Positions 8,575 to 62,890 of a DNA stretch of 64,000 nucleotides are shown here, piece by piece. The notes under the pieces are model-generated. The model did no database searches, was not told the origin of the DNA, and was given only the letters and a program-made list of their open reading frames with translations. The position numbers and the translations under genes are program-made. Source of the stretch: Bacteroides sp. (GTDB lineage Bacteria > Bacillota > Clostridia > Lachnospirales > Lachnospiraceae). The DNA is taken from assembly GCA_023666705.1 (NCBI GenBank), contig JAMPBO010000002.1:124001-188000 (forward strand), in the 5' to 3' direction. Position 1 is the first letter of the stretch. The number at the start of each line of letters is the position of its first letter.

Positions 8575-10068
8575 ATGAAAAAAACAATAATTTCCAACAT
8601 ATTGATGCTGTCTATCATTGTTGCAGCAATATTTTCAGGTGCAAATGTTTATGCGGCAGAGGCAGCACCTGTGAGCATAGAAGTATTAAGTAACCCTAAG
8701 GTATTGGAATATTGTGTTGGAGATAGCTTTGATACACGTGGAATGAGGCTTACGGTAGAATATAGTGATGGAAATGTAAACATAATTTCAGACGGTTATG
8801 ATGTCAAGTATGATTTTACAACTGCAGGAACGAAGCAGGTAATGATTCAGTATTCTCAGGCAGGAAAAACAGTAAGTACACAAGTGGAGGTAAAGGTTTA
8901 TGATAAGCCTGTAATAAGTACGGAAGTAAAAAATGTCCGTCGGGGAGAAAATCTTGTTGTACCTATAGTTCTTAGCAAAAATTGCGGTATTATGGGAATG
9001 GAACTGAATGTCGTTTACGATAAGGAGCGTTTTGTACCTGTAAGTGTGGAGTATTCGGAAGTATTCGGTGCAGGAGAGAAAAATGACAATATAGATATTT
9101 CCAAAACAAATGAAATTAAAATTATATGGACAGGTACGGAAAAGACAACAAAAACAGGTAATGTCTGTACTATAACTTTCTATTGCAAATCCAATGCACC
9201 ACTGGGAGAAGGTTCAATAAAAATATCTGCAAATCCATCAGGCACATATACAGAAAGCTATGCGGGGATAAGCTGCGTTGCTGCGGAGATAAAGCCCGAG
9301 GTATTTACGGCTACTGCTGCAAACACAAAGAAAAAATTGAAAACATTGGCTGTAACGATGTCTGATTATAAATATGGACAAAAAGCATCCGTGCCTAAAC
9401 TGTATGGGAATACAGGAAAAGGTAAGGTCACATATACATATGCACAAAACCCGTCAGGACCATATACAACGAAAAAACCAGTGTATCAGGGAACATATTA
9501 CCTGAAGGCTACAGTTGCAGAAACGGGTTTGTATGACGAGGCAAGCACAACATGCAGCTTCCGCATCAGAGAACCTGAACAGGGAGATAAGTGTAAAGTA
9601 TCAGGTGTTACATACAAGGTTACGGGAAAAAACACAGTGACTTATATGAAGGCAAGCTCAAAGGCAACGTCAATCAAGGTTCCTGCAACGGTGAAGCTGG
9701 GAAAGACAACTTATAAAGTGACAGCAATAGGAACCAATGCTTTTAAAGGAAATAAGAAGCTTAAAAAAGTTACAATCGGGACAAATGTAACTGAGATAGG
9801 TAATGGTGCATTTAGCAAGTGTACGGCTTTAACAAGTGTTACAATACCTAAAAACGTAAAGAAAATAGGCAAGCAGGCATTCTATGGCTGTAAGAAGCTA
9901 AAGAGCATTACAATAAAGACAACCAAGCTGAAAAGCTCAAATATCGGTTCCAATGCGTTCAAGGGAATCAATGCCAAGGCTGCTATCAAGGTTCCAAAGA
10001 GCAAAAAAGCTGCATACAAGAAGCTGTTAAAGAGTAAAGGTGTAGGGAAAAACGTAAAATATAAGTAA
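8575..10068 (+). CDS. Secreted Big_3-cohesin-LRR_5 protein
   Basis: The 497-residue product has a signal peptide ending near VYAAEA, then a Big_3-like immunoglobulin domain (about 32-107, with CVGDSFDTRGM). A second cohesin-like domain follows (about 112-240; GIMGMELNVVYD, EIKIIWTG), then an MBG-like beta segment (about 258-332) and BspA-type LRR_5 repeats (about 345-497). AGGAGG lies upstream of the ATG, 18 nt after the preceding gene. The last ~60 residues are almost the same as the tail of the first gene of the operon. It could be a soluble or wall-associated scaffold binding the same dockerin as the membrane cohesin protein. It is the last gene before a strong terminator. Confidence 0.8.
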   Translation: MKKTIISNILMLSIIVAAIFSGANVYAAEAAPVSIEVLSNPKVLEYCVGDSFDTRGMRLTVEYSDGNVNIISDGYDVKYDFTTAGTKQVMIQYSQAGKTVSTQVEVKVYDKPVISTEVKNVRRGENLVVPIVLSKNCGIMGMELNVVYDKERFVPVSVEYSEVFGAGEKNDNIDISKTNEIKIIWTGTEKTTKTGNVCTITFYCKSNAPLGEGSIKISANPSGTYTESYAGISCVAAEIKPEVFTATAANTKKKLKTLAVTMSDYKYGQKASVPKLYGNTGKGKVTYTYAQNPSGPYTTKKPVYQGTYYLKATVAETGLYDEASTTCSFRIREPEQGDKCKVSGVTYKVTGKNTVTYMKASSKATSIKVPATVKLGKTTYKVTAIGTNAFKGNKKLKKVTIGTNVTEIGNGAFSKCTALTSVTIPKNVKKIGKQAFYGCKKLKSITIKTTKLKSSNIGSNAFKGINAKAAIKVPKSKKAAYKKLLKSKGVGKNVKYK

Positions 10069-10077
10069 TGAAAAACG

Positions 10078-10104
10078 GGCAGGCGGAAAATCGCCTGCCT
10101 TATT
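10078..10104. terminator. Bidirectional intrinsic terminator
   Basis: The stem GGCAGGCG (10078-10085) pairs perfectly with CGCCTGCC (10092-10099) around a 6-nt loop. It lies between the convergent cohesin-LRR gene and the Rpn-type gene and can serve both. Confidence 0.85.
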
Positions 10105-10124
10105 GTTTGTATTTGTAAATACTA

Positions 10125-10973
10125 TTATTTAGAAATTTCAGCTTTTAGTCCTGTTATCTGTTCGATGGTAAGCCCCGAGTATTCGGAAATTTCCGCAATA
10201 GACAATTTATCAGCTTTCAGCATTTTTATGGCTAACTGTTCTGCACACTGTTTGATACCTTGCTCTAAACCCTGCTCAATACCATCCTCTACGCCTTCTT
10301 CGTATTTTTCCTGATAATGCATTTCTAACGTCATATATTCCAGCCTCCATTTCTCATTGCTTCTAACGGATTTGACTGCCGTTTCCAGTTCTTTTGTAAA
10401 TTCATCCGATGCCGCCTGCCCGTCTATGTAATCAAGCAATCGTTTCATTTCAGGTGTTACATCGTCCATGGTTCCTTTTGTGTTTAATATGACTTTTGTC
10501 GTCTCATCGCCAAGACCGATTTCGTAATCCTGTAAACATCGGTTTTCAAATGTGTAAATATGCCTGCCCTTGCCGAATAAATCGAAGGTGCAGATAAAAA
10601 TGACAAAGCTCCGTTTTAAGTCTTGGTAGTCCTCACCTTTTTCCAGTACGTTAAGGTCTATCATTCCCTGATAATATCTTGAACGCTTTGGCAGATTTTT
10701 ATTTACGGATACCTGCATTTCTATATTATATACCGTACTTTTGTCATCTTCAACATAAACATCCAAACGGACAGACTTTGCATCTGCCGCAAGGGCTATG
10801 ATTGCCTGTGTTCTCGGATATTCTATGTCGGATATGCTTATGCCAAGTATTGTTTCCAGAAACGGCTTGCAGTACTTGGGTTCTCTCATAATAACCCCAA
10901 ACATGAAATCATCCTTTAGTTCCAGTTCCTCAAAGTTTTTGGCAGTTCTCTTTTTGTTTTCGTTTTTGTTCAT
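10125..10973 (-). CDS. Rpn-family recombination-promoting nuclease / PD-(D/E)XK transposase-like protein
   Basis: The 282-residue product opens with LKDDFMFGVIM, typical of the Rpn (YhgA-like) family. It carries the nuclease-core segments RLDVYVED and NIEMQV, and a C-terminal glutamate/glutamine/glycine-rich stretch (EEGVEDGIEQGLEQG) typical of the family. These proteins are PD-(D/E)XK nucleases, common and multicopy in gut Firmicutes; some promote RecA-independent recombination and some have been linked to phage defence. GGAGG precedes the ATG. The gene is monocistronic and convergent with the cohesin operon. No inverted-repeat ends suggesting a mobile unit are visible. Confidence 0.85.
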   Translation of the reverse strand: MNKNENKKRTAKNFEELELKDDFMFGVIMREPKYCKPFLETILGISISDIEYPRTQAIIALAADAKSVRLDVYVEDDKSTVYNIEMQVSVNKNLPKRSRYYQGMIDLNVLEKGEDYQDLKRSFVIFICTFDLFGKGRHIYTFENRCLQDYEIGLGDETTKVILNTKGTMDDVTPEMKRLLDYIDGQAASDEFTKELETAVKSVRSNEKWRLEYMTLEMHYQEKYEEGVEDGIEQGLEQGIKQCAEQLAIKMLKADKLSIAEISEYSGLTIEQITGLKAEISK

Positions 10974-43568: not shown

Positions 43569-43689
43569 ACTGTTTAAACAAACGCTGCCATATGTTATAA
43601 TAAAAATATATTAGAGCCTTGTTTTGACCGGTATATAAAATGTTCAATTCTGATTAGAAAGGAACATATAAATAAATGGAGGGATGAGT

Positions 43690-45993
43690 ATGAACACAGG
43701 CAAACATACAAGACTTGTTGCCATCGTCACGGTACTGATTATGGTTTTTGGTATCGTGGCATTTCAAGGTGATAGTACGGCTTTTGCTGCTTCAACGGTA
43801 ACGATTAACGCCACAAATGTTACACTTTATGGTCTGGATGACTGGGCAAAGGAATATATTTCCATCCCGTCAAATCTTAACACAACATATCAGTTAAGTG
43901 TAAGTGGAGCAACGACGGCTTCTTACAGTGTTATTGAAGGCAATTCCGTGGTGGTATCAAAAACAGGTAAGCTCGAGCCAAATGTAACGACATGGTACTG
44001 GTACGGAAATGTGGGATATTCCAGTCCGGTTTCGGGTCAGGAGCCTACGAGTGTAACCAATGAGATACAATACGGAAAAAGTGTCATATCGGTTACTGCA
44101 GGAGGAAAAACCTTTACCGTAAACGTGGAGGTAAAGGATTATGCGGATGTCTATGCCGATGAAATCATGGATGCATACATAGCTGAAAATATAACGGCTG
44201 ACATGGAAACTTATGAAAAGCTTGAACAAGTTGCAAAATTTGTTGCAGACAGGGAGTACAGCGTCTATTATCAATCAGCGGCAGGGCTTATTGTAAGCGG
44301 CGGCGGAGATTGCTGGGCATCGACAAATACAATTATTGCAATGGCAAAGAAGCTTGGGCTTAAGGCATGGGCAAGAAACGGGAACCGTGATTTAGGTGCA
44401 GGCTCAGGACATATGAATGCAATGGTTTCAGACGGCAGGGAATATTTTGAGGTGGAAGCAGGATATTCGTCGGCTGCACCGAGACCATATAATGTGACAA
44501 AGAGGGAAAATCTTTACAGTACAAAATATAATTCAACCTATGGCGGTATTGAAATTTACCAGTATGATGGAGAAACAGTGCCTGAGGTGCTGAATATTCC
44601 TGGGGAAATAGACGGTCAGCCGGTGGTTGGTATCGGTGAGAAGTTCCTGTCAATGGAACGAGGCGTTACAAAGGTCGTATTGCCGTCAACCATAAAATAT
44701 ATAGGTAACAGTGCATTTAATTCCTGTTTAAAGCTTACGACGATTAATATTCCGGCTTCGGTGGAGAGCCTTGGAGACTTTGTATTTACAGGCTGTAGCT
44801 CGCTCAAGAATGTAAGTGCAAGCGGGGTATACACGTATGATGCGGGTGCTTTGTACAAAAATAAGGAAATACTGGTGTATGCACCATGTGCCGCAAACAT
44901 TACTATCCCTGAGGGAATAACGGAAATTGCAGACTACGCATTTTACTATAATGCAAATGTTAAATCATTAACGGTTCCGTCATCGGTAACGAAAATAGGA
45001 GAGGGCGCATTTGGAAATTGTACTTCCCTTGAGACGGTTACATTTCAGGGAAGCAATTTAAAAGAGATTGGAAATTTTGCATTTGCGTATACAGACCTGA
45101 CGTATCTTACTATTCCGAGCTCGGTCGTTACCATTGGTGAAAATATGATGGTGTATGCCAATGATGTCAAGCTGATTGTGACAAAAGGCTCTGCCGCTGA
45201 AACATATGCAAAAAATAACAACGTGACATGTTATAACCCTGATAATGTACCTGCAGAGACGGTTAAATTAAGTAAAAATCAGGTAACGCTGTATGTAGGG
45301 CAGACGGATACCTTAAAAGGAACGGTTACACCGACGTTTGCCTCAAATAAGCTTACATGGAAAACCTCAAACGCAAAGGTAGCTTCTGTTGCAAACGGCA
45401 AAATTACTGCAAAGGCAGCAGGAACGGCAACGATTACGGTTACGGCGGCAGGCGGGGAAACGGCAACCTGCAAGGTAACGGTAAAGACAGGAGCCAGTAG
45501 CATTAAGCTTAAAACGAAGAGTGTTACACTTGGGGTCAAGGAAACCTATAAGCTTGATACAACAATTAAGCCGTCCAATTTAAAAATTGGATGTACATGG
45601 AGTTCGTCCAATACAAAGGTAGCAGCAGTCAGCAAAACAGGTAAGGTTACGGCTAAAAAGGTTGGAACGGCAACGATTACGGTTAAGACAGCCAATGGCA
45701 AAAAAGCAACCTGCAAAATTGTTGTCAAAAAGGCACCAACCACGGTTAAGCTTAATAAGAAAACCTTAAAGCTTGCAAAGGGAAAGAGTTATACGCTTGT
45801 GCCGAAGTTTTCGAAGTATGCTGCTGCAAACGCCGTAAATGTTAAATGGACAACATCAAATTCAAAGGTTGTCTCCATTAAGAAGCTTTCGGGCGGCAAA
45901 TGTAAAATTACGGCTAAGAAAAAGGGAACGGCAACCATTACTTATAAGACATACAATAACAAGAAAGCGAAATGCAAGGTTACAGTTAAGTAA
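43690..45993 (+). CDS. Secreted transglutaminase-like / LRR_5 / Big_2 surface protein
   Basis: The 767-residue product has a signal peptide (cleavage near STAFAAS), an N-terminal beta domain and a transglutaminase-like region (about 150-280) with catalytic-type Cys in GGDCWASTNTIIAMAKKLG and His in GSGHMNAMVSDG. BspA-type LRR_5 repeats (about 300-510) and three Big_2-like domains rich in lysine and threonine (about 520-767) follow. It is probably a cell-wall protein that cross-links or cleaves peptides. GGAGGG lies 6 nt before the ATG at 43690; the ATG at 43684 abuts it. Related in style to the operon at the window's left end. Confidence 0.85.
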   Translation: MNTGKHTRLVAIVTVLIMVFGIVAFQGDSTAFAASTVTINATNVTLYGLDDWAKEYISIPSNLNTTYQLSVSGATTASYSVIEGNSVVVSKTGKLEPNVTTWYWYGNVGYSSPVSGQEPTSVTNEIQYGKSVISVTAGGKTFTVNVEVKDYADVYADEIMDAYIAENITADMETYEKLEQVAKFVADREYSVYYQSAAGLIVSGGGDCWASTNTIIAMAKKLGLKAWARNGNRDLGAGSGHMNAMVSDGREYFEVEAGYSSAAPRPYNVTKRENLYSTKYNSTYGGIEIYQYDGETVPEVLNIPGEIDGQPVVGIGEKFLSMERGVTKVVLPSTIKYIGNSAFNSCLKLTTINIPASVESLGDFVFTGCSSLKNVSASGVYTYDAGALYKNKEILVYAPCAANITIPEGITEIADYAFYYNANVKSLTVPSSVTKIGEGAFGNCTSLETVTFQGSNLKEIGNFAFAYTDLTYLTIPSSVVTIGENMMVYANDVKLIVTKGSAAETYAKNNNVTCYNPDNVPAETVKLSKNQVTLYVGQTDTLKGTVTPTFASNKLTWKTSNAKVASVANGKITAKAAGTATITVTAAGGETATCKVTVKTGASSIKLKTKSVTLGVKETYKLDTTIKPSNLKIGCTWSSSNTKVAAVSKTGKVTAKKVGTATITVKTANGKKATCKIVVKKAPTTVKLNKKTLKLAKGKSYTLVPKFSKYAAANAVNVKWTTSNSKVVSIKKLSGGKCKITAKKKGTATITYKTYNNKKAKCKVTVK

Positions 45994-53494: not shown

Positions 53495-53788
53495 ATGAGA
53501 TACACGATTAATGAAATAAAGGATAGAACAGTTCCTATTGCAAAAGCATATGGAATTGGAAAAATGAGTTTATTTGGTTCTTATGCCAGAGGTGAAGCAA
53601 AAGACAATAGTGATGTTGATTTATATATTGAACGTGGAAGATTGAAAAGTCTGTTGCAATATTTTGCATTTGTTGATGAACTGGAAAATGTCTTGAATTG
53701 TCATGTTGATGTTGTTACTACGGGAATTGAGGATAAACAATTTCTATCACTGATTATGAAAGAGGGGGTGCTTCTATATGAGGACTGA
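53495..53788 (+). CDS. MNT-type minimal nucleotidyltransferase, possible antitoxin
   Basis: The 97-residue product has the nucleotidyltransferase core GSYARGEAKDNSDVDLYIE (GSxxxG...DxD). Such proteins act as MntA antitoxins that AMPylate a HEPN toxin. An in-frame-start 20-codon ORF follows at once (ATG 53778, MRTEDVLIVTEINHE) and could be what is left of a HEPN partner, then a terminator. No intact HEPN gene is present. AAGGAAG precedes the ATG. Confidence 0.85.
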   Translation: MRYTINEIKDRTVPIAKAYGIGKMSLFGSYARGEAKDNSDVDLYIERGRLKSLLQYFAFVDELENVLNCHVDVVTTGIEDKQFLSLIMKEGVLLYED

Positions 53789-54037: not shown

Positions 54038-54996
54038 ATGGCATATACGAATTATATAACAAGGAAATTGGAGAAGGTTGTAAGCCAAGTCACAAAAGAA
54101 TATTCGGTAATTCTCGTTACCGGACCAAGACAGGTTGGGAAGACTACAATGCTTCAAAAGCTGATGGAAGGAACAAATAGGGGATATGTTACATTAGATA
54201 ATTTGAATGAAAGAAGCCTTGCGAAGACAGAACCCGAACTGTTTCTGTACCTTCATAAACCACCTGTGTTAATTGACGAAGCTCAATATGCACCGGAATT
54301 GTCTACTTACATCAAAATGCACGTAGATAGAAATCATGAGCCGGGAGCATTTTGGCTTGCAGGTTCTCAAATGTTTAAGCTAATGCAGGGAGTGCAGGAA
54401 TCCTTGGTTGGGCGGGTAGCAGTACTGTCACTTACTTCTTTGTCACAGGCAGAAATTTCAGGAGGCGAGACAGAACCTTTTACCATAGATTTGGAGACAT
54501 TATCAGCCAGAAAAGCTAATAGGAATGTAGCTGAAATTGCGAGGGATGCGGATATCAACCAAACGCAGGCAAAGAATTGGTTAGGGATTTTGGAGACGCT
54601 GAGGATTATTTTTTACCTGAATCCATATTCCGACAATTTGTTAAAGCGGCTTGTAAAAACACCGAAGTTATATTTTTATGATACAGGGCTGGTATGTTAT
54701 CTGACGAAGTGGAGCAGTCCGGAAACACTGGAAAGCGGTGCAATGAATGGGCTGTCCTTGAGAATTATGTGGTTGCTGAAATAAGGAAAACCTATTTGAA
54801 TTGCAGAAAGGAATCTTATTTATATTACTATCGTGATAAGGATGCGAAAGAGATAGATTTGGTGATTGAACATGACGGTGTGCTAAATCCGATTGAGATA
54901 AAAAAGACCTCCAATCCGGGAACGGAGCTTATCAAAGTATTTGAACTGTTAGATAAATCATCAACACCACGTTCAAAGGGGCGGCGCTTTGTATGA
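54038..54996 (+). pseudogene. DUF4143/AAA_14 ATPase pseudogene (frameshift and internal deletion)
   Basis: The first frame has Walker A GPRQVGKTT (about residue 29) and Walker B VLIDEAQYAPEL. It then runs into an out-of-frame end near 54750: the next frame continues with GAMNG ... VLENYVVAEIRKTYL, the start of the DUF4143 nuclease-like domain, and later EIDLVIEHDGV. One missing G in a GGG run at about 54750 explains the shift. The segment between ATPase and DUF4143 is also shorter than in intact relatives. An intact paralogue lies at 55633. Confidence 0.75.
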
Positions 54997-55632: not shown

Positions 55633-56832
55633 ATGGTTGTCAGAGCACATTATTTGAATATACTGAAAACATACCGTGATGTGCCATTAGTGAAAATACT
55701 GGCAGGGATTCGCCGCTGTGGTAAGTCCACAATTCTAAATATGCTGCAGGAAGACTTAATCGCAAGCGGAATTGATGCTGTTCATATTATCAGCATGTGT
55801 TATACTTCAGAGGATTTTGACGACAATATGACCGACAAGGATATGTACAATGGCATCAGAGAAAAAATGACGGATGGTGAGCGTTACTACATCCTGCTTG
55901 ATGAGGTTCAGGAAATTGTCGGCTGGGAGAAGGCTGTCAACAGTCTGCTCGAAAATGCCAACACGGATATCTATGTTACGGGTTCCAATTCTAAGCTGAT
56001 GTCAAGTGAAATATCTACTTATCTGACGGGGAGGTATGTTTCCATTCCCGTATTTCCGTTGTCCTTTGCCGAGTATATGGATTTCAAAAAGCAGACGGAA
56101 CGAGCACCGAAGGAGTTGTTAAATGAGTACATTCGGCTGGGTGGATTTCCAGTTGTTGCGATAAGTGATTTTGACGAGAACACTGCCTATCAGATTGTCG
56201 AGGGCATCTATCATTCCGTTATCACCAGTGATATTACAAAACGTCATAACATTAAGAATTTTGATCTCTTTAACCGTGTTGTAAAGTATGTGGTGGAGAA
56301 TGTTGGTAAGACATTTTCGGCGAATGCCATTGTAAAGTTTCTGAAAAACGAAGGGCGTTCTCTTTCTGTGGAGGCTGTCTATAATTATTTGGAATGGCTG
56401 GAAAAGGCTTTTGTGATTTATCGCTGTCAACGATATGATTTGCAGGGAAAATCGGTGCTGAAAACACAGGAGAAATTTTATCTTGCGGATGTATCCCTCA
56501 AATATTGCATGATGGGATTTAATCCGAAAGCTGTTGCCGCAATGCTTGAAAATATCGTGTATTTTGAGCTTCGCAGAAAGGGCTATGAGGTTTACATCGG
56601 AAAGAACGAAACGAAAGAAATAGACTTTGTCGCAGTACGGCGTGACGAACGTATTTATGTGCAGGTGTGCCGGAACCTACCGAAGGAATCTGACCGTGAG
56701 GTTGCCAATCTGCTTGAGCTTAAGGACCATTATCCGAAATACGTGGTAACGCTTGATGAGTTTGCAGGGGGGAATATTAATGGTGTTAGGATTGTGTATT
56801 TGGCGGATTTCTTGTTGAGAGGAGAGTATTAG
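55633..56832 (+). CDS. DUF4143/AAA_14 family ATPase, intact
   Basis: The 399-residue product has Walker A GIRRCGKST (about residue 26), Walker B YILLDEVQEI, a sensor-like TGSNSKLM and a winged-helix region (about 230-290). It ends with a DUF4143 nuclease-like domain (NETKEIDFVAVRRDERIYVQV). This is a large family common in anaerobes; the role is unclear, perhaps DNA or stress-related. AAAGGAGGCG precedes the ATG. Paralogue of the broken gene at 54038. Confidence 0.88.
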   Translation: MVVRAHYLNILKTYRDVPLVKILAGIRRCGKSTILNMLQEDLIASGIDAVHIISMCYTSEDFDDNMTDKDMYNGIREKMTDGERYYILLDEVQEIVGWEKAVNSLLENANTDIYVTGSNSKLMSSEISTYLTGRYVSIPVFPLSFAEYMDFKKQTERAPKELLNEYIRLGGFPVVAISDFDENTAYQIVEGIYHSVITSDITKRHNIKNFDLFNRVVKYVVENVGKTFSANAIVKFLKNEGRSLSVEAVYNYLEWLEKAFVIYRCQRYDLQGKSVLKTQEKFYLADVSLKYCMMGFNPKAVAAMLENIVYFELRRKGYEVYIGKNETKEIDFVAVRRDERIYVQVCRNLPKESDREVANLLELKDHYPKYVVTLDEFAGGNINGVRIVYLADFLLRGEY

Positions 56833-57151
56833 GAGGGTGAAGGCAGGTTGTAAATGCATACTAAATAGTATATAACAATGCAAAAAGATATAATTAAAAG
56901 AGATTAGACTAAGTTCTTTAATTATACATAAAGGGCGGATATAGAATTTAATGATGGCTTGCTATATTTTGATTTTGTATTCAAATATGAAAATCTCGAA
57001 TAAATGAAGAATAAAGTTATTAATGAAATATTTTTGGTTCTATGTTATTATTTGAGTGGTATAATGAAGAAAACCACGATGTAATACAAATAGTATCTTT
57101 CGAATATGATTTAACTATTGAGAAAAAGACATAGGATCAAAGAGGTAATTT
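56833..57151. other. AT-rich intergenic region upstream of the defence-like operon
   Basis: No gene is visible. It carries an extended -10 promoter: TG-n-TATAAT with TATAAT at 57060-57065, 87 nt before the methyltransferase start. The -35 region is poor. Confidence 0.6.
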
Positions 57152-58567
57152 ATGAATGTGAAATGCCAAGTATTTACGCCTAATGATTATGTGAGAGAAT
57201 TGTTAGATAGCGTAGGTTATACTGAAAGTTTGTATGGAAAAAGAATACTGGAGAATTCATGCGGCGACGGAAATATTCTGGTAAGTATTGTGGAAAGATA
57301 TATTGAAGATTGCAGAATACAGGGATTGACAGATACCGAGATTTGTAAAGGTATAACAAGAGATATTTATGGTATTGAAATCGATCCCATACAGTACAAA
57401 AAGTGCATTCAAAACTTGGACAAATTAGCAGGAAATAAAAGAATTGGTAAAGTCAAATGGAATGTGATTAATGAGGATTATTTAAAGTGGAAATGCACAA
57501 AGAAGTTTCAATTTGTTGTTGGCAATCCACCGTATATTACATATCAGGAATTGAGCGAAGAAGAGAGAGAGTTTGTAAGAAAAAATTTTGAAACTTGTGA
57601 AAAAGGGAAGTTTGATTATTGCTATGCATTTATAGAAAAAAGTGTGAAATATCTGGATAGGAAAGGGAAAATGTCATATTTAATTCCTAGCAGCATATTT
57701 AAAACTGTATTTGGTGAAAGGCTACGAGAATTTGTTAAACCGTATATACGAGAGATACATGATTATACGAGGGATAAGATGTTTGATAATGCATTAGTAA
57801 AGTCGGCAATAATGGTACTTGATAAAACAAAGGGAAATAAAAATTTCTTATATTATGATATGGCCAATAAAGAAAGGATTAATATTCCGCTTACTAATTT
57901 ATCAAAGAAATGGTTTTTTATAGAAAATAGTGAAATTGGAACAAGACGCTTTGGAGATTATTTTCAGGTGGCTCATGTAGTAGCAACATTATTGAATGAT
58001 GCTTTTGTAATAAAAAAAGAAAATTATGAAGAAATGGATGACTTTTATCAATGCAATGGTAGAAATATTGAAAAGGCAATAGTAAGAGAAACAGCTACCC
58101 CGCGTTCGTTGCGATATAAGAAAGAGGAGAAGATTATTTTTCCGTATGATTATGTAAATGGTAAACTAATTAGGTATACGGAAAATCAATTTAAAATGTT
58201 ATTTCCGGGAGCAGATGCTTACCTTAATGATTTTAGAGAACAATTGGATAAGCGTGAAAGTGATAAGAGTGCGTTATGGTTCGAGTATGGACGTTCGCAG
58301 GCTTTGACAGGATTAAATAGAAGAAAGCTTCTTATATCAACAGTAATCACAGAAAAAGTAGCTGTGTATATATTAAAAAAGAAGTGTATTCCTTATGCAG
58401 GGATGTATATTGTGCCTAAAGCCGGAAATAGAACATACAAACTTGAGGATGCAAAAGATATACTGGAAAGTGATGAGTTTATGAGGTATGTAAAAACTGT
58501 TGGAATACATATCAGCGGGGCTTCGTTAAGAATAACATCGAAGGATATTGAAGAATTTAGATTTTAA
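57152..58567 (+). CDS. N6-adenine DNA methyltransferase (Eco57I-like)
   Basis: The 471-residue product has SAM motif I in ILENSCGDGNILV (about 32-44) and the catalytic NPPY motif (residues 125-128, FVVGNPPYITYQEL), which marks N6-adenine methyltransferases. The C-terminal half is a likely target-recognition region. No endonuclease domain is fused. AGAGGTAAT precedes the ATG. It is the first gene of a closely packed operon with an ATPase, a receiver protein and an HNH endonuclease, and would mark self DNA. Confidence 0.88.
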   Translation: MNVKCQVFTPNDYVRELLDSVGYTESLYGKRILENSCGDGNILVSIVERYIEDCRIQGLTDTEICKGITRDIYGIEIDPIQYKKCIQNLDKLAGNKRIGKVKWNVINEDYLKWKCTKKFQFVVGNPPYITYQELSEEEREFVRKNFETCEKGKFDYCYAFIEKSVKYLDRKGKMSYLIPSSIFKTVFGERLREFVKPYIREIHDYTRDKMFDNALVKSAIMVLDKTKGNKNFLYYDMANKERINIPLTNLSKKWFFIENSEIGTRRFGDYFQVAHVVATLLNDAFVIKKENYEEMDDFYQCNGRNIEKAIVRETATPRSLRYKKEEKIIFPYDYVNGKLIRYTENQFKMLFPGADAYLNDFREQLDKRESDKSALWFEYGRSQALTGLNRRKLLISTVITEKVAVYILKKKCIPYAGMYIVPKAGNRTYKLEDAKDILESDEFMRYVKTVGIHISGASLRITSKDIEEFRF

Positions 58568-58583
58568 TTAAGGAGAAAAGCAT

Positions 58584-61103
58584 ATGCAATCTATGGTATT
58601 CCAAGTGAGTGCAAAAACAGCAAGGCTTATTGGCAGAGAGAATATTTCTGATGTAGACGGTGCTATAGTTGAATTGGTAAAAAATGGATACGATGCAGAT
58701 GCAGAGTGTGTTTATGTAAAGTACATAAATCCATATAATGAAGTACCAAAATCTTTAACCCGTTCGGAAGTAAATAGATATTTTAAAGAGAATATGAATC
58801 TTATTTTAGATAATTATAGTGTTAAAGATGGAGTTTATGTGTTGAATGAGAGTGAAAAAGTTAATTTGACAGAAATGGAACAATATTTGCACTCAATTTC
58901 TAAAATAATTGTAATAGATAACGGTTCAGGAATGAGTAGGGAAATATTAGAATCGGCATGGATGAATATTGGTACAGATAATAAAGAAGTAAATATTTAC
59001 AGCCCCAAAAAAAAGAGAATTAAAACAGGGGCGAAAGGAATTGGGAGATTTGCTCTCGATAAACTTTCATTTTGCACACGGGTATTTACAAAGTGTGAAA
59101 CGGAACAATTATATAAATGGGAAATAGACTGGCGGCAGTTTGATGATGCAAAATTATTAAATCAAGTTGAGGCGAGTTTTGAAGAATGTGGAGAAAATTT
59201 TGAGGAATTAGTTAAAAAGCATTTGGATGATGATTATGTTTTAGTTAAAGATTTTGGTTGGACAACAGGAACTATGATTATTTTGAGTCCTGTTCGAGAC
59301 CTTTGGGATGAAAAATTATATACAAAGGTAAATAACAATCTTAAAAATATTAATCCACTTGGTAGTGTTGATCGATTTGATGTTTTTGTTAGAAATGAGA
59401 AATATCCGAATTTAAATTATGAAACAGAAAGTGAAGGAATAACACGTGAAAATTATGACTATTTGATTGAGGCTAATTTTGATGGGAAAGGAAATGTATC
59501 AGTTACTTTAGATAGAAATGAAATAGATATTACTAAAAAAGTAATTCGAAGGGAGTACTCACCTACTGATATAGAAGAATATGATTTAAATGAATTTTGG
59601 AGTAGAGAAGCTTTTGAATTAAAGAAATATACTCGAAATGATTTTGATGGAAAACAAGAGTTTCATTATTCCCTGAAGGAAATCTTGGAAAATCCTAAGG
59701 AAAGAATTGATAGATATAATGACGTTGGTCCGTTTTGTGTAAAAATGTATTATTTAAAGAATCAGAAAAGCACAGTTGGAATAGTAAAAGATTTTAAGGG
59801 CAAAAAAAGAAAGCAGTTATTAAAAGATTTTTCTGGTATCAAAATATACCGAGATAGTTTTAAGGTAAGACCATATGGTGATGAAGGGCAGTTTTTCGAT
59901 TGGATTGATTTAGGTGGCAGAGTTCAAAGAAGTCCTGCCGCGGCATCACATGAAAGTGGTAATTGGCGTGTGTCGTCAAATCAGCTGATAGGTAGTGTTT
60001 CTATTGGCAGAGTGAATAACCCTAAGTTAGAAGATAATGCAAATCGTGAGGGGATGAGCTCTAATAGAGAGTACGATTGTTTTATTGAGATTATACAAGG
60101 TATTTTAGGGAAGTTTGAATATGACAGACAATATGCATTAAGGGAATATGCAGCGTGGGAAAGAGCGAAGAAAAAAGCACATGAGGATAAGGTTCAACAA
60201 ATATATGAGCAAGTACTGAAAGAAAGGGAACAGGAAAGTAAAAAAGAACAAAAGACGCACAAGGATAATGCAGAACAAAGTGTTGATAATGCAGAACAAA
60301 ATAATTATGATAATAATCAATTTTCGGAAGATGATTTAAAAGACGCAATTGTATCATTGGGAAAGGAAAAAGAAGATAAGACATCTACGGAACAATTAAT
60401 GATGATTCTTAGTTCAGCAGGTGTGATGGCTCAGACATTTTCACATGAAATTACACGAATAGGAACCCAATTAGGTAGCAGAGGTCAGCATTTAAAAGAG
60501 GCGATTAATAGAATGCTAAATTATCAACCTTTTTGTGGAGATGAGGATTTTAATCCATATGTATTATTGGGGGAACTTAACGAAACAGATGAATTATTGT
60601 CTGAATGGGTAAATTTGATTATGGATTCGATAAAGCAGGAGAAGTTCGAATCTAAATCTGTACAATTAAAGGATTTTCTTATTCATATTACTGAAATATG
60701 GCAGCCTCTTCTTGACAGAAAATTTATTACCATAAACTCTGTAAGTGTTGAAGGAGAGATAGAACTAAGACTACCAGAGGTAGATTTACATTTGATTTTG
60801 AATAATTTCATTTTGAATTCTGCATACTATTTAGAAGAGGCTGATGGTATACGATTAATAGATTTTTCAGTGTATGAAGATGAAAAGAAAGTGTATTTGG
60901 AAATGTCAAACAATGGACCGGAACTAGATGAGAGGTATCGGCAGAATCCGGACGCAACATTAAATGCCAGAGAAAGTAGTAAAGAGGATGGAACTGGATT
61001 GGGATTATGGATTGCACGTGAGGCTGTAATTCGTAATGCGGGTGAATTGCATGTAATACCAATTAAAAATGGATATATGTTAAAAGCTGCATGGGCAAAA
61101 TAG
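58584..61103 (+). CDS. Double-GHKL ATPase: Hsp90/MORC-like module plus histidine-kinase-like module
   Basis: The 839-residue product has two ATPase modules. The N-terminal one has a GHKL/Hsp90-type N-box (ELVKNGYDADA, Glu30), G1 DNGSGM (112-117) and G2 GAKGIGR (149-155), as in MORC-like proteins of restriction systems. A coiled coil rich in Glu/Gln/Asn (about 535-600) follows. The C-terminal part looks like a histidine kinase: TFSHEITRIG with His621 as possible phosphoacceptor, N-box LNNFILNSAYYL and G-box DGTGLGLWIARE. The gene starts 16 nt after the methyltransferase, with AAGGAG. The fusion of both types in one polypeptide is unusual. Confidence 0.82.
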   Translation: MQSMVFQVSAKTARLIGRENISDVDGAIVELVKNGYDADAECVYVKYINPYNEVPKSLTRSEVNRYFKENMNLILDNYSVKDGVYVLNESEKVNLTEMEQYLHSISKIIVIDNGSGMSREILESAWMNIGTDNKEVNIYSPKKKRIKTGAKGIGRFALDKLSFCTRVFTKCETEQLYKWEIDWRQFDDAKLLNQVEASFEECGENFEELVKKHLDDDYVLVKDFGWTTGTMIILSPVRDLWDEKLYTKVNNNLKNINPLGSVDRFDVFVRNEKYPNLNYETESEGITRENYDYLIEANFDGKGNVSVTLDRNEIDITKKVIRREYSPTDIEEYDLNEFWSREAFELKKYTRNDFDGKQEFHYSLKEILENPKERIDRYNDVGPFCVKMYYLKNQKSTVGIVKDFKGKKRKQLLKDFSGIKIYRDSFKVRPYGDEGQFFDWIDLGGRVQRSPAAASHESGNWRVSSNQLIGSVSIGRVNNPKLEDNANREGMSSNREYDCFIEIIQGILGKFEYDRQYALREYAAWERAKKKAHEDKVQQIYEQVLKEREQESKKEQKTHKDNAEQSVDNAEQNNYDNNQFSEDDLKDAIVSLGKEKEDKTSTEQLMMILSSAGVMAQTFSHEITRIGTQLGSRGQHLKEAINRMLNYQPFCGDEDFNPYVLLGELNETDELLSEWVNLIMDSIKQEKFESKSVQLKDFLIHITEIWQPLLDRKFITINSVSVEGEIELRLPEVDLHLILNNFILNSAYYLEEADGIRLIDFSVYEDEKKVYLEMSNNGPELDERYRQNPDATLNARESSKEDGTGLGLWIAREAVIRNAGELHVIPIKNGYMLKAAWAK

Positions 61104-61116
61104 AAGGAGGCCATCT

Positions 61117-61773
61117 ATGTATATTATTGGATTGATAGATGATGAAGAAAGTCAGTTAAGGATGATTAGGAGAACAATCAAAACAAATGCAACAAGCGAT
61201 GAACAGTATGATTTTAAATCCTACTTAGTATCTGATAATGCAAATGATTTTGTTACAGATGTATTTGAAGAAGTGATTGGCGATATAAAGGAACTAAAAT
61301 TATCTTCATTAATAGTTGACTATAAAATAATCGTTAAAACTTCTAAAATTAAAGGAACAGATATATTTAAAAGAATAAAAGAAGAGGTTCCTAAATTTCC
61401 GATAATTATATTGACTGAAGTTGTTGAAGAGAGTACTGAACCTGAGTTTATTGATGCAGATAAGGTTTATAAGAAGAAAGATTTCTATAAAATAGAGAGC
61501 GAGTATTCCAAAGAAAAAGTATTCAATATTTTTGATAGCATGCGAAAGTATATTGATCAAAGGGATAGATTGCAGTTGACAATAGATGATTTAAAACAAA
61601 AATTAACAGAAGGGAGCTTGGGGCGGGAAGCAATAAGTAGTATATTGGCATTGGAAACTCAATTAGATGATTTTGTACCTACTGAACAATCACAGATTGA
61701 TAAAGTGTTTGATAAAGATAAAGCTAAGGAGATTGTTGCGCTGCTTGAAAAAGCAAATACACTATTGGGGTAA
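61117..61773 (+). CDS. Receiver-domain (response-regulator-like) protein without DNA-binding domain
   Basis: The 218-residue product has a receiver domain with the acidic pocket D8-D9 (GLIDDEESQ), probable phosphoacceptor D68 (SLIVDYKI), T100 (IIILTEV) and a conserved Lys near 119-120 (KVYKKKDF). A helical C-terminal region (about 140-218) follows with no HTH. It lies 13 nt after the GHKL gene, which supplies a histidine-kinase-like module, and 5 nt before the HNH gene, so it is a natural phosphorelay partner that might control the nuclease. Confidence 0.8.
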   Translation: MYIIGLIDDEESQLRMIRRTIKTNATSDEQYDFKSYLVSDNANDFVTDVFEEVIGDIKELKLSSLIVDYKIIVKTSKIKGTDIFKRIKEEVPKFPIIILTEVVEESTEPEFIDADKVYKKKDFYKIESEYSKEKVFNIFDSMRKYIDQRDRLQLTIDDLKQKLTEGSLGREAISSILALETQLDDFVPTEQSQIDKVFDKDKAKEIVALLEKANTLLG

Positions 61774-61778
61774 TACTT

Positions 61779-62402
61779 ATGAAAAGAAAATTCAGAGATT
61801 ATAAAATCACAAGAACTTGTGAAAAGGAATATAGCGACTACCATTTATATAAGAAATATTTAAAAGAAGATTTTAAACATCGATGTGCTTATTGTAATTT
61901 ATTGGATACACAAATCACAACACCATATGAAGTTGATCATTTTGTACCAATGACTGTATTTAAAAAGGATTGGCCAGAATTAGAAACTACATATGCAAAT
62001 TTAGTATATTCATGTAAGAAATGTAATGGTGCAAAAAGTGATTATTATAAAGGTGATATTAAAAAGAGAGAAATAAAAAATGAATATTTTTATGAGCCGG
62101 AGGAAACGGATTATGGAACTATTTTTTATCGTGGAGATGATGGGGGTATTTATTCAGACGATGAAAAAGGACGTGATATGATTACGAAATTGAAATTATA
62201 TCGACCAATACATAATCTTGCTTGGATTTGTGAAATTACTAAAACAACTTTGGATAGGCTTTCTGCTCAAATTAAAGAAGTAGGCATAGATAGTATTAGG
62301 GGGAGGGTTTTACAAGAAGCGAGAGAGGAATTGCGTGAGTACTATGACGATTGTGTAGCAGTTTTTATGGCAAATTATAACAATAATAAATTTACACTTT
62401 AA
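61779..62402 (+). CDS. HNH endonuclease
   Basis: The 207-residue product has a zinc-stabilised HNH core: CAYC (Cys36, Cys39), VDHFVP (Asp53, His54), Asn74 in YANLVYSC, Cys79, Cys82 and Asn83 (CKKCNGAKSDY). These residues are those of active HNH nucleases. A C-terminal helical part follows. It is the last gene of the operon and the obvious effector. No SD is obvious beyond GGGGTAAT; coupling to the preceding stop (5 nt away) is likely. Confidence 0.9.
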   Translation: MKRKFRDYKITRTCEKEYSDYHLYKKYLKEDFKHRCAYCNLLDTQITTPYEVDHFVPMTVFKKDWPELETTYANLVYSCKKCNGAKSDYYKGDIKKREIKNEYFYEPEETDYGTIFYRGDDGGIYSDDEKGRDMITKLKLYRPIHNLAWICEITKTTLDRLSAQIKEVGIDSIRGRVLQEAREELREYYDDCVAVFMANYNNNKFTL

Positions 62403-62514
62403 AAAATGAGATATAATGAGCAATAATTATGATTGACTTTTTAGCGAGACCAATCGAGAAATGAAAATGAATAAAAAGCGGAAATTTGATAAAATGATTG
62501 TGATAAAGAAATTT

Positions 62515-62550
62515 AAAACCGTTGGAAACAAACATGTTTCCAGCGGTTTT
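62515..62550 (+). terminator. Strong 15-bp hairpin terminator after the defence-like operon
   Basis: AAAACCGTTGGAAAC (62515-62529) pairs with GTTTCCAGCGGTTTT (62536-62550) with one G-U pair. The arm's T-run and A-run allow termination in both directions. Confidence 0.88.
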
Positions 62551-62890
62551 GGCGTATATGGAGTGGTCTATATGTTCACTTTGACTTTTTAGTTTTGATT
62601 GATTAGGCTAAATTGTCTACAACTAGGACAATGAACTAAGTGAAATTTACATTTTGATGTGTTAAAATATATTGCATTATAAAAGAATATAATAAGATAA
62701 AGCAAACCGATAAAATATTTGAACAATAAAGTAAAAAGAATATATTGATGAAATACATAGATGGAGTTGGAAGATATGTGGATGGAGAGACGAGTAAAAG
62801 GATTCTATAAGTGATTATTTTTAAACCTGAATTTTAAGACTAAATCTGGTATGCAACAGTAAATTCTAAATACTCTTTGAAAGTTTTGCC
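62551..62890. other. AT-rich spacer between the operon and the mobile-element fragment
   Basis: No gene is visible in this AT-rich stretch. It holds a third copy of CTAGGACAA (about 62619), also found at 46841 and 46861. Confidence 0.5.

Follow-up and report, generated by a model that had tools for sequence, protein, structure and literature searches.

A candidate mobile restriction-modification cassette in which a two-component relay may gate DNA cutting

Two-component signalling usually controls transcription or motility. In the 64,000-nucleotide stretch of DNA analysed here (the window), a kinase gene and a receiver gene are flanked by genes for a DNA methyltransferase and an HNH nuclease. 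Here, two-component signalling seems to be wired directly to DNA restriction. We see an even chance that the four genes form a mobile restriction-modification (R-M) cassette in which a cytoplasmic two-component relay acts as the gate for cutting. The four-gene unit would function in phage defence, with the relay gating a generic nuclease and the methyltransferase setting specificity. Its predicted features are as follows.

57152-58567, plus strand: N6-adenine DNA methyltransferase, 471 aa (ORF list and Pfam)
58584-61103, plus strand: kinase, 839 aa (ORF list and Pfam)
Kinase residues ~1-490: N-terminal MORC-like GHKL ATPase and middle domain
Kinase residues 495-562: long helix
Kinase residues 582-682: DHp-like helices with H621
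Kinase residues 690-838: C-terminal histidine-kinase catalytic domain
61117-61773, plus strand: receiver (response regulator), 218 aa (ORF list and Pfam/profile)
61779-62402, plus strand: HNH nuclease, 207 aa (ORF list and Pfam)
62513-62552, plus strand: hairpin, possible transcription terminator (fold energy against shuffles)

The four genes and their products

The initial annotation had described four same-strand genes separated by gaps of 16, 13 and 5 nt, and the coordinates of the open reading frames agree with this. Its assignment of a restriction-like unit, composed of a methyltransferase, a protein with GHKL/MORC-type as well as histidine-kinase-type ATPase motifs, a receiver and an HNH nuclease, was borne out by Pfam and profile matches. 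The block had also been called AT-rich. Its GC content is indeed low (0.31-0.33, compared with 0.37-0.45 in much of the window), but this is not peculiar to the block because the stretch at 50-54 kb is equally AT-rich (0.30-0.34). Of the strong terminator with which the block was said to end, a stable hairpin remains at about 62513-62552 (-24 kcal/mol; z -6.36; 0 of 200 shuffles equally stable), but it is located about 110 nt past the last stop codon, its stem is not followed by a separate T-run, and a consensus pattern scan for terminators does not list it. For the DNA directly past the stop (62400-62520), the fold is no more stable than in shuffled sequences (z 0.05).

The first product is a clear member of the Eco57I/TaqI class of type II methyltransferases. 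It matches the Pfam families Eco57I (5.5e-23) and N6_Mtase (4.8e-13), a PADLOC model of type II methyltransferases (8.5e-53) and, in the PDB, adenine methyltransferases (8cxz/7lni, 1e-13) and TaqI (4e-6). N125, P126 and P127 of its NPPY motif (residues 125-128) are kept in all 31 methyltransferases compared, and Y128 in 25, with F in the remaining six. What would set it apart from this class is its partner, which we infer to be a gated module and not a stand-alone restriction enzyme.

In the kinase, Pfam detects HATPase_c_3 at residues 99-200 (2.4e-13) and HATPase_c at residues 732-824 (2.4e-9). Compared with other sequences, the profile of the kinase family matches the sensor kinase ThkA (3.4e-23) and MORC3 (3.5e-6), and the structure model matches the kinase chains of the HK853-RR468 complex and MORC2 with DNA. 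The MORC likeness rests on this MORC3 profile match and the MORC2 fold match; in one structure search all 50 matches listed were kinase-type and C-terminal, and the N-terminal half was barely tested there. Model confidence around H621 is low (pLDDT <50 at 598-622). Not one PADLOC 2023 family matches the kinase or the receiver at E values up to 1.

H621, N741, N745, G803, G805 and G807 are invariant in 33 of 33 kinases, and the residue following H621 is E in 29, D in three and H in one of them. The G1 box of the window kinase is altered, N776 replacing D and E780 replacing G. The same Asp-to-Asn replacement is found in seven of the 33 kinases (window, L003, L005, L006, L022, L084 and L077; L-numbers designate fetched loci), all of which also lack Gly at position 780 and have E, Q, T or S instead. 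Judged from the alignment, the substitutions at 776 and 780 are a linked change in the kinase ATP site, and given this change the kinase domain of the window protein may bind ATP weakly or differently. L018 adjoins an IS66 element, and its odd residues at positions 30 and 34 may be due to a start that is wrong or disrupted.

The receiver has a REC domain followed by a helical C-terminal tail. Its match to Response_reg (5.3e-5) is under the Pfam cut-off; in the PDB, a profile of 22 receivers matches response regulators (positions 1-103; best 2.7e-6). Pfam reveals no DNA-binding output domain in the window receiver, its structure model is poor (pLDDT 48), and a plasmid search with the window receiver as query gave no match at E 0.01. 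Receivers beyond close kin were first assigned by position and afterwards by profile. Among 32 of them, D68 and T100 are invariant and K120 is present in 28; position 8 is D in 29 and E in three, position 9 D in 22 and E in ten. H621 of the kinase and D8/D9, D68, T100 and the lysine (K120) of the receiver stand where they had been placed in the initial annotation and are conserved among relatives. Measured against a canonical two-component system, the receiver has the REC Asp, the acidic pair, the Thr and the Lys, and the kinase has N741, N745, G803, G805 and G807, the G1 Asp being Asn.

The fourth product matches Pfam HNH (3.9e-6) and PADLOC PtuB (1.8e-15). Searched alone against the PDB it has no match at 0.1, but the profile of its family matches the HNH protein of retron Ec78 (retron/Septu PtuB; 1.6e-6). 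H54, N74, C36 and C79 are conserved in 31 of 31 HNH proteins, and C39 and C82, which complete the cysteine pairs C36/C39 and C79/C82, in 30. It shares its HNH family and a similar size with PtuB of Septu and retron Ec78; the difference is that the window protein is paired with a kinase, a receiver and a methyltransferase instead of a PtuA ATPase or a reverse transcriptase. Pfam finds no PtuA-type ABC/SMC ATPase among the four products, and the one PADLOC PtuA model that matches does so with the HNH protein only (1.3e-9).

Conservation and distribution of the unit

The search for relatives covered contig collections, plasmids, viral contigs and 392 genomes from the host's order. A kinase match is present in 114 fetched loci (near copies included), and 36 of these have this HNH within 1.5 kb. 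Conserved synteny, a check proposed in the initial annotation, is evident in them: a receiver is present in 36/36 and a methyltransferase in 35/36, the lone exception ending with its contig. The 36 loci include one broken locus and three near copies, and many of them helped to build the profiles. An independent check is provided by 19 HNH loci on viral contigs fetched after the profiles had been built, of which 18 have the receiver and 16 the methyltransferase; in the nineteenth (L112) the HNH gene is at the start of the contig with no kinase adjoining.

The unit is spread over four phyla and the viral-contig collection, and the records name Lachnospiraceae, Bacteroides, Ensifer, Salipiger and Deinococcus among the hosts. 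Within the host order the kinase is rare. It was detected in eight of 392 genomes, the own genome included, with a single-protein query at E 1e-30, and in 15 of 392 with a profile query, which also picks up sibling kinases; among 398 genomes of the same phylum only the own genome has it at E 1e-30. Direct DNA relatives were not found in phages at 'distant' sensitivity. The DNA similarity of L003, L005 and L006 to the window (E 1e-10) is limited to positions ~57138-62404, that is, to the four genes, which therefore travel as a single piece. The HNH is likewise found with the kinase: a query of 72,556 plasmids returned five records, all five of them kinase loci, and the HNH profile gave 14 matches in 216 genomes, of which the four strong ones are all kinase loci (three were already in the profile; the other ten, in nine genomes, score 59 bits or less).

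Some loci were omitted from the residue counts and the co-divergence analysis: L004 is partial, L016 has a broken kinase gene, L085 runs into a contig end, and L096-L098 are near copies of a single type. Both L020 and L021 are without this HNH; they are included in the kinase residue counts and L020 also in those of the receiver, but neither belongs to the co-divergence set; L100 (no methyltransferase row) is outside that set too. Over the 30 systems retained, the most distant receivers are 10% identical and the most distant kinases 20%, which argues that the invariant residues have been selected and not merely inherited.

Some sibling systems differ in the receiver. L020, L036 and L039 encode larger receivers with a fused C-terminal part, and two of the three adjoin a cytosine methylase. 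A common [TN]PxCD motif marks the C-terminal part of these receivers and of genes in their place (L020:8150-9172, L036:8096-9169, L039:4339-5496, L034:8394-10304 and L038:8334-10376), and in L020, L036 and L039 this part closes with a YY(A/S)RQGxP tail. It has no Pfam match in any of the five proteins and is possibly an unnamed effector domain. In the sibling locus L129, the second gene past the kinase (9731-10753) encodes a protein of the metallo-beta-lactamase fold (3.6e-10), which suggests that the effector slot may hold other enzymes.

Co-divergence and exchange of the methyltransferase

In a set of 30 complete systems, kinase, receiver and HNH vary together in pairwise identity (Pearson 0.92, 0.93 and 0.88), and the methyltransferase goes along with them less closely (0.54, 0.54 and 0.51). 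Removal of close kin, which leaves 26 systems, gives 0.84, 0.86 and 0.74 as against 0.47, 0.44 and 0.42. This contrast is not clear by rank, the Spearman coefficient of receiver and HNH (0.44) being about that of kinase and methyltransferase (0.43) or HNH and methyltransferase (0.43). All six correlations beat 2000 permutations in the 30 systems, so the methyltransferase is in part co-inherited; in the first 15 systems its correlations were reached by 94, 18 and 260 of 2000 permutations.

Stronger evidence of exchange comes from discordant pairs than from the correlations. Methyltransferase identity is at least 40% while kinase identity is below 35% in 51 of 435 pairs, and the kinase is at least 40% identical while the methyltransferase is below 25% in four. 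The clearest example is L024 versus L027, with a methyltransferase identity of 97% but identities of 27%, 15% and 18% for kinase, receiver and HNH; their DNA matches at 97.2% over 1833 bases, and the match ends at the methyltransferase/kinase junction, where the methyltransferase gene ends. The opposite situation is seen in L023/L024, L023/L025 and L027/L028, where the HNH proteins are 41-53% identical and the methyltransferases only 14-15%. Trees give a similar picture: the kinase clades L023+L024+L025+L026 and L027+L028 contain methyltransferases of two distant groups (in a quick methyltransferase tree). For kinase and HNH, by contrast, no pair has a kinase identity of at least 40% and an HNH identity below 30%, and a single pair is discordant in the reverse direction (L015/L090; 40% and 34%). 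These comparisons suggest that the DNA-marking methyltransferase is exchangeable as a separate module, and the joint divergence of kinase, receiver and HNH points to one nuclease per relay. Read most simply, specificity and self-marking lie with the methyltransferase, whose outcome the kinase-receiver-HNH part would read; alternatively, two nucleases may recognise the same site.

The methyltransferase also occurs apart from the relay. L007, a metagenome assembly, has a near-identical methyltransferase (98% DNA identity) followed by a kinase gene that is cut after codon 76, with unrelated sequence beyond (L007:6387-8229). As the locus reads, the restriction part has been lost and the methyltransferase retained, which is as expected if the methyltransferase alone is harmless. 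Furthermore, four of 11 genomes with a relative of the window methyltransferase have no kinase nearby (L072, L074, L075 and L076; 41-47% identity to the window methyltransferase). A GmrSD_N/DUF262 gene is present in all four and a HEPN gene in the three that were scanned; the methyltransferase family therefore serves more than one kind of effector. A HEPN family, MAE_28990, is described in PMC3710099 in an operon with genes for a ParB nuclease and a DNA methylase.

The exchange of the methyltransferase bears on whether the unit is an ordinary type II R-M system, which likewise has separate genes for methyltransferase and endonuclease. The HNH would then have a site of its own, matched to that of the methyltransferase, and the kinase and receiver would only tune the timing or amount of restriction, for example during establishment or stress. 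Such a system would account for the methyltransferase that adjoins kinase and HNH in 35 of 36 loci and for the correlation that still links its divergence to that of the other three proteins. It also accords with the speculation of Bellieny-Rabelo et al. (2021; PMC8011034), voiced there for similar domains, that R-M is controlled directly or indirectly through signalling. A matched site, however, fits poorly with methyltransferases that are 97% identical beside HNH proteins that are 18% identical (L024/L027) and with the three pairs that are discordant in the other direction, and Pfam shows no DNA-binding output domain in the receiver. We regard this explanation as rather unlikely.

We would also not expect the unit to act by abortive infection, where a phage signal would pass through the relay to an HNH that degrades DNA without site choice, so that the cell dies, and where the methyltransferase would protect or inhibit at rest. 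PtuB effectors of Septu and retron systems, to which the window HNH is closest, are activated by partner proteins, as this explanation would have it, but the near-constant methyltransferase partner (35/36) points to self/non-self marking.

Proposed mechanism and relation to known systems

Returning to an R-M cassette gated by a relay, we propose that the methyltransferase would mark the host's own sites and set the sequence specificity of the system. Unmarked DNA, or some other hint that DNA is foreign, would be sensed by the MORC-like ATPase of the kinase, probably through a clamp on the DNA and possibly jointly with the methyltransferase. The signal would run down the long helix to the DHp/catalytic core, where H621 would be phosphorylated; the phosphate would then pass to D68 of the receiver, which would bind and then release or activate the PtuB-like HNH nuclease. 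It is tempting to speculate, with less than even confidence, that this defines a distinct class of restriction system, in which an interchangeable methyltransferase is plugged into a conserved kinase-receiver-HNH engine and a generic nuclease is turned on when a MORC-like clamp reports unmethylated DNA via a His-Asp phosphorelay. The relay-gated cassette as such is the best explanation of those considered; its weak points are the change in the G1 box, a methyltransferase that is partly co-inherited and the possibility of nucleases that share a site. Finally, it is quite improbable that there is no real phosphorelay and that the GHKL ATPase is a MORC/MutL-like clamp activating the HNH by contact, with the kinase core and receiver as relics used for dimerisation or docking: the G1-box change in 7/33 kinases, the MORC2 structural match and the MORC/paraMORC ATPases of predicted R-M operons (PMC2292703) would suit such a clamp, but H621, D68 and T100 are invariant in 32-33 sequences with identities down to 20% (kinase) and 10% (receiver), and a relic is unlikely to keep such residues at so low an identity.

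If the relay reading is true, restriction would be a regulated signalling event and not a property of a nuclease. A nuclease gated in this way could be delayed, thresholded or reset, which would also explain how the cassette can move safely into a new host whose DNA is unmethylated. The four genes make up a small, apparently cytoplasmic system that occurs in several phyla, and the exchangeable methyltransferase would supply natural material for altering restriction specificity by the swap of one gene.

The initial annotation could not match the locus to any named system. This no longer holds in full since a similar kinase/receiver pair tied to R-M has been predicted in PMC8011034. That paper describes HEF_HK kinases (PF19191) and Response_reg_2 receivers (PF19192), a pair that is linked in 91.6% of 644 regions and enriched in the vicinity of R-M genes; conspicuous among the neighbours are cytosine methylases and Vsr, and the nucleases include HNH. 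The likeness to the window lies in a kinase with HATPase_c_3, His-bearing DHp-like helices and HATPase_c, encoded beside a REC-type receiver and R-M genes, and in a core His followed by an acidic residue in the DHp-like helix (H621 in 33/33 kinases of the window family). The profile of 33 kinases matches L041, which passes the HEF_HK cut-off (26.4 bits), with an E value of 6.4e-96, and hhalign aligns it over 735 columns (probability 100) with an alignment of seven relatives, of which L041 alone passes that cut-off. By these profile comparisons the window kinase family is a full-length homologue of the HEF_HK kinases. Membership in the two Pfam families themselves, examined for the window proteins and for relatives, was rejected. 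The window has no match to PF19191 up to E 10 with a model that works (26.4 bits in the L041 record) and none to PF19192 up to E 10, the latter being the weaker result as the model was silent in 12 records and 14 control genomes. Further differences are the 218-aa receiver of the window versus the 600-aa query receiver of PMC8011034, the four-gene set with a separate HNH, and an adenine methyltransferase versus the mostly cytosine methylases reported there. A kinase/receiver pair resembling a two-component system and tied to R-M is already in print (PMC8011034), and the window kinase is a variant outside both Pfam domains; new here are the co-divergence of kinase, receiver and HNH, the weaker coupling of the methyltransferase and its exchange.

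The N-terminal half of the kinase relates the unit to a second group of predicted systems. Iyer et al. (2008; PMC2292703), in the text on these ATPases, place MORC/paraMORC ATPases in predicted R-M operons, some of them with HNH. Common to both are an N-terminal GHKL ATPase and the R-M operon, in line with the MORC3 sequence and MORC2 fold matches. The window kinase, by contrast, adds a histidine-kinase core and a receiver partner, and there is no helicase among the four genes; the word 'receiver' was not found in that text. According to the legend of its Fig. 6F, PMC13092281 has predicted systems whose domains include HATPase and REC, with the genes unspecified, and overlap with the present unit is possible. 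We found no experimental study of the four-gene set in the literature covered, which excludes non-open papers and preprints. Detocs is a defence system that is also built on two-component-like phosphotransfer, but with other genes: adenine nucleotides are the target of its effector, a phosphatase, and it is not known to have a methyltransferase or an HNH.

Several genes near the block, outside the shared four-gene unit, deserve mention. Just upstream, window positions 55633-56832 encode an AAA_14/DUF4143 ATPase that matches the PADLOC candidate PDC-S01 (2.7e-149), and the overlapping frames 54038-54784 and 54694-54996 look by eye like a single interrupted gene for an ATPase of that general kind. 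A small open reading frame at 53495-53788 contains a GSYARGEA...SDVDL stretch, which we take to resemble that of a minimal nucleotidyltransferase. Just beyond the end of the window, L029:9173-13608 encodes a 943-aa helicase with DUF2726 and a Schlafen/AlbA_2 protein, suggesting that the region downstream of the window is a defence-rich variable region. Further upstream, the 769-aa product of 43684-45993, which has BspA-type leucine-rich repeats and Big_2 domains, is probably a surface protein.
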